Positions 47,152 to 63,925 of a DNA stretch of 64,000 bases are shown here, piece by piece. Where the stretch lies: positions 1-64,000 of the forward strand of contig JAHQWH010000155.1 of the NCBI GenBank assembly GCA_029856105.1, written 5' to 3'. The notes under the pieces are model-generated. The model was not told where the DNA came from. It made no database searches and worked only from the letters and a program-made list of their open reading frames with translations. The translations under genes were made by a program, and so were the position numbers. Every line of letters starts with the position of its first letter. Within the stretch, counting starts at the first letter, position 1. This DNA is from Promethearchaeia archaeon (lineage in GTDB: Archaea; Asgardarchaeota; Lokiarchaeia; Sigyniarchaeales; SOKP01).

Positions 47152-47418
47152 ATGGCAAATGTAAAATTAAATAATAAAAGCCTATTAGAGAAATTACAAG
47201 CAAAAGTCACTCTAAAATTAGGAAAAAAAATCTCTCAACAAGAGATATTAGATAATAGTATTGAATTTGCGTATAACCGACTTGACGAATTCATTTCTGA
47301 AAAGATTGATCATCCTCCAATCACTGACGATTTAATTAAGAAGATAAAAGAAAATGCAATTGATGCGCCTTTAATGCATCCGGAAAAATCTGATGACGAA
47401 TTAATATACGGGTTATGA
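47152..47418 (+). CDS. vapB: Antitoxin, VapB-like
   Basis: 88 aa, directly upstream of a PIN-domain gene. Confidence 0.6.
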   Translation: MANVKLNNKSLLEKLQAKVTLKLGKKISQQEILDNSIEFAYNRLDEFISEKIDHPPITDDLIKKIKENAIDAPLMHPEKSDDELIYGL

Positions 47419-47449
47419 AAAAAGAATTAAGACATTTATAGGGTAAACA

Positions 47450-47866
47450 ATGACAATCATAATTGATTCAAATTATTTATTTGCTTTAAAATCGAAAAAA
47501 GATAGAAATCACAAAAGAGCATTTGAATTATTCAAAGAACTTAAAAAAGATTCTATAAAACCATTAATTACCAATAATTTAGTCGTAAGTGAAATCTTTA
47601 CTTTAACCAATTCAAGATATAAAGGAAATATTTATTATTTAGATAAATATTATGAATTAATTTGGGGGCAAGAAAATTTTTTCAAGATTATTCAATTAAA
47701 ATCTGAAGAATTTAAAGATGTTTATAAAATATTAAAAAAATATACAACTCCTAAACGGTTATTAAGTTTTGTGGATGCTTCTTTAATATTTTTATATAAA
47801 AAATTCAATGCTAAAGCAATTTTATCCTTTGATAATCATTTCGATGGGATTATTTTACGATTATAG
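47450..47866 (+). CDS. vapC: PIN-domain ribonuclease toxin, VapC-like
   Basis: TIIIDSNYLFAL...NLVVSEIFTL...FVDASLIFLYKKFNAKAILSFDNHFD. Confidence 0.8.
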   Translation: MTIIIDSNYLFALKSKKDRNHKRAFELFKELKKDSIKPLITNNLVVSEIFTLTNSRYKGNIYYLDKYYELIWGQENFFKIIQLKSEEFKDVYKILKKYTTPKRLLSFVDASLIFLYKKFNAKAILSFDNHFDGIILRL

Positions 47867-49468: not shown

Positions 49469-49957
49469 TTAATATTCAATACCAAGACGAGCTTTAATCC
49501 CTTTTGAAGAGTAGTAATGTTTAATCATTCTCATTTCAGTGAGTAAATCTGCACGCTCTTTAATTTTAGGATGCATCTTAGGTCCACCAGTTATAATTAA
49601 TTCAACTTTTTCAGGTTTATTATCAATCAATTTTAATACTTCGTCAAGTTTTACGATTCCATATTCGACAGCAACACCAATTTCGTCAAGAATAACGACA
49701 TCGTATTCGTCGCCCATAATCACCTTCTCTGCAAACTTCACGCCTTTTTTTCCTTCTTCAAAGTCAATTTCTCCAGGAGTTGCGATTAAATCTGGCGTTC
49801 CAAACTGTTTCAATTCGAAATTTGGAACCCCTTTTACAGCCGTAACTTCCCCATATTGAGGGTATCCTTTCATAAATTGAATCATATATACTTTATATCC
49901 ATGACCCGTAGCCCGAAAGCCTTGTCCTAAAGCCGCAGTGGTCTTGCCTATAGGCAT
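49469..49957 (-). CDS. cobA: Corrinoid adenosyltransferase (CobA/BtuR type), main ORF lacking N-terminal beta-1/P-loop half
   Basis: GKTTAALGQGFRATGHGYKVYMIQFMKG...VVILDEIGVAVEYG...KHYYSSKGIKARLGIEY. Confidence 0.85.
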   Translation of the reverse strand: MPIGKTTAALGQGFRATGHGYKVYMIQFMKGYPQYGEVTAVKGVPNFELKQFGTPDLIATPGEIDFEEGKKGVKFAEKVIMGDEYDVVILDEIGVAVEYGIVKLDEVLKLIDNKPEKVELIITGGPKMHPKIKERADLLTEMRMIKHYYSSKGIKARLGIEY

Positions 49958-49959
49958 TA

Positions 49960-50037
49960 CTATTTTTTTATAGCAATTTTACCCCGACCAAAATAAACTT
50001 GTACAAGGCCAACATTTAATCTTTTTCTTTCGACCAT
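49960..50037 (-). CDS. 25-codon upstream ORF encoding the missing N-terminus of CobA
   Basis: Minus-strand translation MVERKRLNVGLVQVYFGRGKIAIKK*; first 20 codons match the expected CobA N-terminus up to GxGK of the P-loop. Confidence 0.6.
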   Translation of the reverse strand: MVERKRLNVGLVQVYFGRGKIAIKK

Positions 50038-60779: not shown

Positions 60780-61757
60780 TTAACTATTTTTTTTTATTTC
60801 TAAGGTTATTTTATCAAAAATTTTATGAATAGAGCTATAAATATTGAATTTACCGTCTTCCAAAGCGTTTTTTACAATATTAGTTACTTCGTTTTCGTCT
60901 ACAAAATTTTCCATGATAAGCTTTTCAACTTTAGAAAAAAGAAGTTCCTTAATTTTGTAAGAAAATCGATTTTTTTTCTTTTCGTTGATATTTCCTGAAA
61001 GTTCAACATGTTCTTTATGATCCCAAATACTTTGGAGAAGTTCGTCGATACCCTCGCCACTGATTGCATCAGTCAATACAACTGGGGGCCGATACCCGCT
61101 CTGAAATATCGTATCGTCAAGCATCATTTCAATTTGTACGGCTATGTCTTCTCCTCCTAAATCTTTTTTGTTAACATCGTAAATATCTCCTATTTCAATA
61201 ATCCCTGCTTTTTGCATTTGAATAACGTCTCCATAACCAGGAACTAAAATTACAACAACAGTATATACTAAATTGTACACATCGAATTCAGCTTGTCCGA
61301 CGCCAACAGTTTCAATAATGATTATATCCATGCCAAAAGCTTCGTATAGCATGCTAATATCAAAAACTGCTCTTGAAATTCCTCCTTGATACCCTCTCGA
61401 TGCAAGACTACGCATGAAAACGTTAGGGTGTAAGCAGATATTAGTCATTCTAACCCTATCCCCTAAAAAAGCACCTCCACTAAAAGGAGACGTTGGATCT
61501 ACAGAAATAATACCTACAGTTTTTCCTTCGTCTAACATTTTTTGAGCTATTGCCCCGGTTAAAGTGCTCTTTCCAACGCCAGGAGAACCTGTAAGTCCAA
61601 TAATATAAGAGTCGTGATTTATATTTTCAAAATGCTTGAAAATCTTAGAAGCCTTCTCAGGTTCGTTTTCAACAATTGTTATTAATCTAGCTAAAGCAAT
61701 TTTATCTTTCTTTTTAACTCTGTTAACTAAAGATTCTATAATGTCGTCATTCGTCAA
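60780..61757 (-). CDS. meaB: MeaB/ArgK-type GTPase of methylmalonyl-CoA mutase
   Basis: GLTGSPGVGKSTLTGAIA, SVDPTSPFSGGAFLGDRVRM, SRGYQGGIS, ETVGVGQAE. Confidence 0.95.
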   Translation of the reverse strand: MTNDDIIESLVNRVKKKDKIALARLITIVENEPEKASKIFKHFENINHDSYIIGLTGSPGVGKSTLTGAIAQKMLDEGKTVGIISVDPTSPFSGGAFLGDRVRMTNICLHPNVFMRSLASRGYQGGISRAVFDISMLYEAFGMDIIIIETVGVGQAEFDVYNLVYTVVVILVPGYGDVIQMQKAGIIEIGDIYDVNKKDLGGEDIAVQIEMMLDDTIFQSGYRPPVVLTDAISGEGIDELLQSIWDHKEHVELSGNINEKKKNRFSYKIKELLFSKVEKLIMENFVDENEVTNIVKNALEDGKFNIYSSIHKIFDKITLEIKKNS

Positions 61758-62239: not shown

Positions 62240-63925
62240 TTAAATTGCTAACGGAGGTTCCCAAATACCCCATATTTCTCTGTAAATATCACATATTTCA
62301 CCTATTGTTGCCCCTTCTTTTGTAGCTTCCATTATTATAGGCATCACATTTTCTTCTTTTTCGCAGACACTTCTTAGTTTGTCTAAAATCCTCTCTAACT
62401 TGGCGTTGTCTCTCCGTGCTTTTAACTTGTTAATCCGAGCAACTTCAATATCTATGGCTTTTTGCGATGTTCTAAAGACATCTGTGACTGTGTCGTATGG
62501 AACTTGATATTTATTGATACCTAACATGATTTCTTCCCCTTTTTCAATGCGTACCCTTCTCTTATGGAACGCGTCTCTCATTTCTTTGTAGAGCCAACCC
62601 GTAGATAAAGCTTTATCTATGGAACCAACCTTTTGAATTTTGTCCATATATTTCCATACTCTTTCTTCAACCTCATCAGTTAACCACTCCACATAATAAC
62701 TCCCTGCTAATGGATCTATTGTGTTAGTTATTCTAGTTTCATCTGCGATTACTTGTTGAGTTCTTAACGCAACTAATGCCGCTTCTTCTGAAGGCAGGCA
62801 TATAGCTTCGTCGTAGGAATTTGTATGGAGCGATTGACAGCCACCTATGTTAGCTTCTAAGCCTTGAATTGCTGTACGAACGATATTAATCAGAGGTAAT
62901 TGCGCCGTTAAAGAGCTTCCAGCGGTCTGGACATGAAAGCGGAAGCCAAAATTCTTTGGGTCTTTTGCTTCATATTTATCTTTCATCAATTTATACCATA
63001 TTCTTCTCGCTGCTCGATATTTAGCTATCTCTTCAAAAAAATCCTTGTGTGCAGCTAAATGAAAGGCTAATCTACCCACAAAATCATCAATCTTCCATCC
63101 CCGCTCAATTAAATTATCAATATGGGAACAAGCACTTGCAAATACGAACCCAAGCTCCTGAACGGCATCTATGCCCCCTTCGCGGTAATTATAACCCGTG
63201 AAATTAATTGGATGCCATTTAGGAACATTCTTTTGAGCTACTGTCCATTCAATAAAATCACATGCTATTCGTAATAAGTGGTTTGGTGGAGAGTTTTTAT
63301 AAGGGATATAGCCAACTGTCATCGTTAGAATATCATTTTGTGTCGTACCCATTAAATCTTTTATGTCATATCCGCGCATTTTTGCCATGTTAAAATACAT
63401 TGCACACACAGGAGCACAAGTAAAGGGTTCAACAACTAAAGCTACGCTAATTTTATCTATGGGTATGTCTTCTGTAAGCGCAAAAAGGCTGTCAATGCAG
63501 TAAAGCGGAACACCAGATGTACCAACCTCTGGTGCAGCATCGGAGTTTGTAGGGTCAATTCCGTTAAAAGTAAGCGCATCAACGGCAGCACTGAACCCTG
63601 TTTCACCATTCTCGTACAAATATTTCCATCGTAGATTAGTCTCTTCTGGAGTTCCATGGCCTGAGAATAACCTCATAGTCCATAATTTTCCGCGATACAT
63701 GGTAGGATAAACTCCTCTTGTATAAGGTTCTTGTCCAGGAAAGTTAATTTTATCTAAATAATCTCCTTTTACATCTAATGGAGTGTACAGCTTTTTTATT
63801 GGAATCTCAGAGTCGGTTACGAATTTGACATCGCGTTCTTTTGACTCTTTTATTTTTTCTTCCCATTTTTCTTTTTCTAATCTAATTTTTTCTAAATAAT
63901 CTTTATCAAACATATTTAAAATCAC
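62240..63925 (-). CDS. mcmA1: Methylmalonyl-CoA mutase large (catalytic) subunit
   Basis: GQEPYTRGVYPTMYRGKLWTMRLFSGHGTPEETN; ANIGGCQSLHTNSYDEAICLPSEEAALVALRTQQ; DPLAGSYYVE. Confidence 0.96.
   Translation of the reverse strand: MILNMFDKDYLEKIRLEKEKWEEKIKESKERDVKFVTDSEIPIKKLYTPLDVKGDYLDKINFPGQEPYTRGVYPTMYRGKLWTMRLFSGHGTPEETNLRWKYLYENGETGFSAAVDALTFNGIDPTNSDAAPEVGTSGVPLYCIDSLFALTEDIPIDKISVALVVEPFTCAPVCAMYFNMAKMRGYDIKDLMGTTQNDILTMTVGYIPYKNSPPNHLLRIACDFIEWTVAQKNVPKWHPINFTGYNYREGGIDAVQELGFVFASACSHIDNLIERGWKIDDFVGRLAFHLAAHKDFFEEIAKYRAARRIWYKLMKDKYEAKDPKNFGFRFHVQTAGSSLTAQLPLINIVRTAIQGLEANIGGCQSLHTNSYDEAICLPSEEAALVALRTQQVIADETRITNTIDPLAGSYYVEWLTDEVEERVWKYMDKIQKVGSIDKALSTGWLYKEMRDAFHKRRVRIEKGEEIMLGINKYQVPYDTVTDVFRTSQKAIDIEVARINKLKARRDNAKLERILDKLRSVCEKEENVMPIIMEATKEGATIGEICDIYREIWGIWEPPLAI

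Follow-up and report, generated by a model that had tools for sequence, protein, structure and literature searches.

The corrinoid adenosyltransferase gene cobA/btuR in the window, a 64,000-nucleotide stretch of DNA from a Lokiarchaeal MAG (3.66 Mb, 238 contigs, 92% complete), is interrupted within its P-loop codons by a short insert that is, with high probability, a relaxed bulge-helix-bulge (BHB) pre-mRNA intron in a functional gene. The tRNA-splicing enzyme of the cell very probably removes this 29-base piece from the mRNA. The minus-strand ATG at 50037 starts the frame MVERKRLNVGLVQVYFGRGK, which stays open to GGT AAA (49978). The following nucleotides, 49977-49949, read ATTGCTATAAAAAAATAGTAATGCCTATA and lead into the codons GGC AAG ACC ACT, so that the GKTTAALG frame restarts 29 nt downstream and ends with a stop codon at 49469; the downstream ORF (49957-49469, minus strand) encodes 162 aa. 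This split of the cobA P-loop is present just as the initial annotation had described it. The length given there, 29 nt, also holds, but the position shifts by 1 nt. The window copy by itself leaves the boundary uncertain by 1 nt; comparison of copies settles on 49978-49950 (AATTGC...CCTAT) for the intron and on A49949 as the first base of exon 2. The features of the locus are as follows (a slash marks a predicted cut).

49979-50037, minus strand: cobA exon 1, MVERKRLNVGLVQVYFGRG plus AA, the first two bases of the Lys codon; dN/dS about 0.1
49950-49978, minus strand: predicted BHB intron, 29 nt, AATTGCTATAAAAAAATAGTAATGCCTAT; site in 17 genomes, covariation, cut fixed by locus L085
49469-49949, minus strand: cobA exon 2, A (third Lys base) and GKTTAALG... 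to the stop; PF02572
49981-49984, minus strand: central helix H, 5' strand GGGU (exon 1), pairing with 49952-49955
49952-49955, minus strand: central helix H, 3' strand GCCU (intron), from the fold alignment
49978-49980, minus strand: 5' bulge AA/A, predicted 5' splice site between 49979 and 49978
49949-49951, minus strand: 3' splice-site bulge AU/A, predicted cut between 49950 and 49949
49970-49977, minus strand: inner stem, 5' strand AUUGCUAU; 5/8 pairs compensatory
49956-49963, minus strand: inner stem, 3' strand AUAGUAAU; covariation

The gene product is a CobA/CobO/BtuR corrinoid adenosyltransferase according to its PF02572 profile match. The unspliced core scores 162 bits and matches from profile position 14, whereas the spliced protein reaches 184 bits over positions 3-172, a full-length match with a complete P-loop (G-x-G-K-G-K-T-T) that aligns with the CobA of 1g5r without a gap through this motif. 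In the copies that carry the intron, the spliced frame has a dN/dS of about 0.07, as does the core, and exon 1 has 0.10; none of this exceeds what intronless copies show. The window copy gives 0.24-0.29 against its three nearest relatives, above most other pairs, and a mild relaxation of this copy alone is possible. An adenosyltransferase is expected because the window holds an apparent methylmalonyl-CoA mutase (ORF 62240-63925) and a MeaB-like chaperone of that mutase (ORF 60780-61757), both named by our own reading. The initial annotation had proposed looking for a second intact cobA; no other adenosyltransferase gene was found in the same genome, which has one PF02572 gene only, and the PduO-type family PF01923 was found in none of 25 genomes of the genus. 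A distant second PF02572-like homologue, with a TAG and a TAA within the match, was seen at G068:C317:9372-9869. Elsewhere in the window (47152-47866), two small adjacent ORFs of 88 and 138 aa resemble, by eye, an antitoxin/PIN-domain toxin pair.

Searches of the genus, family, class and phylum (232 Asgard genomes) and of GTDB contigs revealed an insert at the identical P-loop codon in 17 of the 232 Asgard genomes, all from four genera of one family (13 from the window's genus, two from g8 and one each from g2 and g4). The comparison of orthologues suggested at the outset thus turned up both states, as about 40 orthologues, close relatives included, have an uninterrupted GRGKGKTT. Chance is far from explaining why 17 genomes share an interruption at one and the same codon. 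Insert lengths of 29, 30 and 31 nt occur, so that no remainder modulo 3 is missing, and an in-frame stop, at a position that differs among copies, lies within each insert; even the eight 30-nt inserts, which keep the frame of exon 2, have one. The universal stops are less telling than they seem, given that 45-74% of the shuffled versions of any one insert also contain a stop and that the copies are related to one another. The conserved stop may reflect selection against translation of the unspliced mRNA. In all 17 genomes an in-frame NTG (ATG, GTG or TTG, never CTG) precedes exon 2 (window 49957-49955); its UG is explained by base pairing. A hunt for further introns with covariance models R1 (class and phylum) and R2 (genus) returned one site per genome, cobA, and none of ten weak extra matches that we checked interrupts a reading frame. 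A mobile multi-copy element thus found no support. Group I and group II introns possess a catalytic core of hundreds of nucleotides and are ruled out for inserts of just 29-31 nt.

The fold of the RNA emerges from an alignment of 16 distinct intron-bearing sequences. With no structure supplied, RNAalifold returned a 4-bp helix (columns 10-13/41-44), a 3-nt 5' bulge and an 8-bp stem (17-24/33-40); 96.9% of cells are paired. The central helix has four of four pairs in 16/16 sequences, and all four vary on one side; the 5' strand is exon, and coding therefore limits it. Compensatory changes occur at five of the eight pairs of the inner stem, which is the inverted repeat TTGCTAT/ATAGTAA of the initial annotation. 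Covariation amounts to 0.387, compared with 0.227 ± 0.020 for shuffled alignments (0/500 as high), a test inflated by sequence relatedness, and with at most 0.124 in the slide control, which is free of this inflation. As supporting evidence only, since relatedness is ignored in the Fisher test, the exon-side helix strand RGGY is found in 16/16 intron-bearing but 20/39 intronless copies. A 3-nt bulge AAN thus lies at the 5' splice site beside a 4-bp central helix, as in a BHB motif, whereas the canonical symmetrical hBHBh' form with an outer helix and a 3-nt 3' bulge is absent. Where there is outer pairing (UGGUC/GACCA or GGUAG/CUACC), an open loop of 8-10 nt remains on the 3' side; the register of this pairing varies between groups, and loci L081 and L085 lack it. 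With an open loop on the 3' side and an irregular outer helix, the motif is therefore of the relaxed BHB/BHL type.

The archaeal splicing endonuclease cuts between nucleotides 2 and 3 of each bulge (PMC2738675). Applied to the alignment, this rule gives AA/N on the 5' side and NN/R on the 3' side, and the joined AA+R is always a Lys codon, by which GRGKGKTT is restored in every copy at offset 0. Most copies tolerate at least one neighbouring boundary through shared letters. In L085, where the exon ends in GGTAAT, GRGKGKTT results only from the bulge-rule cut. That an RNA rule and a protein requirement agree independently weighs more than any other single argument for the predicted intron.

Two tRNA-endonuclease genes and an RtcB gene were found in the same genome. 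The alpha gene (L119:1171-1773) is closest to chain 3p1z_B of a crenarchaeal enzyme, which we take to be the Aeropyrum pernix endonuclease. Its catalytic Tyr, His and Lys are all preserved, and it has K-P-R at the positions of K44-P45-R46 of A. pernix, a loop that has been linked to the cleavage of relaxed substrates (PMC12397907). The beta gene (L120:1210-1815) aligns without the catalytic His. The predicted enzyme is of the crenarchaeal-type (alpha-beta)2 pattern, and (alpha-beta)2 endonucleases have been associated with pre-mRNA splicing in Crenarchaeota. As far as sequence alone can tell, the host thus possesses enzymes fit for relaxed motifs together with a ligase, and we infer that they carry out cleavage and ligation in the cell. 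The pre-mRNA would fold with GGGU, which comprises the last base of the Arg codon and the whole Gly codon, paired to GCCU close to the 3' end of the intron; inside this central helix would stack the 8-bp stem of the intron itself, leaving the 3-nt 5' bulge AA/A and the 3' site AU/A. The heterotetrameric tRNA-splicing endonuclease would then cut between bulge nucleotides 2 and 3, and RtcB would ligate the exons. The joined AA+A would supply the P-loop Lys codon (GRGK-GKTT) of a 179-aa adenosyltransferase.

Of the three options that the initial annotation had listed without ranking, removal at the RNA level is the one that conservation and covariation bear out, in the form of a BHB intron. Another was a split gene: coupled re-initiation at the NTG (ATGCCTATAGGC) would yield a 162-aa core that joins a short N-terminal peptide in a two-piece enzyme. 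The in-frame ATG, GTG or TTG directly before exon 2 and the upstream stop in all copies speak for it, but we consider it very unlikely, as the P-loop itself would be cut in two (GRGK/GKTT) and variable residues (MPI, MLR, VLK and others) would stand ahead of GKTT. Moreover, the UG of the NTG is already needed by pairs 17-40 and 13-41, and the N tracks its pairing partner in most copies. Re-initiation also leaves unexplained both the central helix with exon 1 and the exact restoration of L085 at the bulge-rule cut.

Bypass or frameshifting by the ribosome across the insert could draw on the stem directly after the exon and on the A7 run of the window copy, but seems barely credible. A fixed frameshift is excluded because lengths of 29, 30 and 31 nt, covering all residues modulo 3, would demand different frame changes and no copy is free of in-frame stops. 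Because the A7 run is not conserved (AAATCAA, AAATAAA), we also rejected a -1 frameshift there, by which ten residues would be added. A hop from GGY to GGN would drop GK from the P-loop, and most copies offer ATA, AGA or ACA where a hop from AAA would need AAA/AAG to land on; no matching take-off and landing codons exist for a full P-loop, with L085 ending in GGT AAT. Recent pseudogenisation and assembly error, both raised in the initial annotation, are similarly improbable. The elevated dN/dS of the window copy in three pairs and its stable competing hairpin would fit decay, but the recurrence of this insert in 17 genomes assembled independently of one another contradicts both proposals for the family, and the low dN/dS of the spliced frame and the lack of any other adenosyltransferase gene found in the genome argue against a pseudogene.

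The competing hairpin, UGCC-UAUA-GGCA, is predicted over UGCCUAUAGGCA in the window copy and beats the predicted BHB form by about 4 kcal/mol in ViennaRNA calculations, which assign the BHB form a probability of about 0.007. Among the distinct copies, roughly half have the BHB form as their optimum or give it more than one fifth of the ensemble, and in the others it is a minor form. The palindrome TGCCTATAGGCA (window 49945-49956) lies at the 3' splice site, and its hairpin competes where exon 2 has GGC rather than GGT. The initial annotation had correctly noted this palindrome, the GCC of which is part of the central helix; as a conserved element it does not stand, since several copies have GGT instead of GGC. 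The hairpin could be a regulatory alternative, and its predominance in the modelled window copy may reflect noise, such a regulatory alternative or the onset of decay.

On the CobA tree, intron presence and absence require eight changes, at least five of them forced by well-supported branches, and the sister pairs L027/L099, L081/L087 and L074/L026 differ in intron presence. Since the introns at the shared site resemble each other across genera, the pattern suggests one old gain with several precise losses, or spread of an intron-bearing allele. In L027 and L099 (genomes G027 and G067), one with and one without the intron, the outer flanks are identical and the codons beside the intron site differ (GGTAGAGGC vs GGACGGGGT), as if a short piece of exon had been exchanged when the intron was lost or gained.

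Protein-coding genes of archaea with introns are almost unknown. A 2020 paper names the crenarchaeal cbf5 intron as the one archaeal mRNA intron of BHB type known at the time, apart from the 5' UTR example that the paper itself describes (PMC7714728). The cbf5 intron of Desulfurococcales and Sulfolobales is likewise short (16-44 nt, compared with 29-31 nt in cobA), has a relaxed BHB and follows the same cut rule, splits a catalytically essential site, shows patchy losses and occurs in hosts with a heterotetrameric endonuclease, as the genes alone predict for the cobA host (PMC2738675). The cobA intron differs in gene, phylum (Asgard/Promethearchaeota) and site, and its splicing is predicted from sequence, whereas that of cbf5 was shown by cDNA (PMC2738675). 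HVO_1309 of Haloferax is also an mRNA substrate of the archaeal splicing endonuclease, but its BHB intron lies in the 5' UTR, outside the coding sequence (PMC7714728), whereas the cobA reading frame depends on removal. Introns at non-canonical tRNA positions are common in Atabeyarchaeia and Freyarchaeia (PMC11291895). The same machinery is expected to act on them, and they too lie off the canonical tRNA position, but their host is a tRNA and not an mRNA. In the open-licence literature we found no report of protein-gene introns in Asgard archaea, and the best reading of the cobA insert is a BHB pre-mRNA intron in a new gene and a new phylum.

A bolder proposal, that the conserved in-frame stop and the competing hairpin make the intron a regulated splice switch controlling coenzyme B12 production and that Lokiarchaea splice protein-coding mRNAs with tRNA-splicing machinery more generally, appears unlikely to us. 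Asgard archaea are the archaea closest to eukaryotes. If real, the cobA intron would be the second BHB intron known within a coding sequence, this time that of a central-metabolic enzyme from this group. Annotation pipelines would split such genes into false pseudogenes. The cobA intron offers a defined RNA substrate that is open to direct testing. Intron-containing protein genes would then occur outside Crenarchaeota, and the Asgard lineage would have a crenarchaeal-type splicing endonuclease with mRNA substrates.
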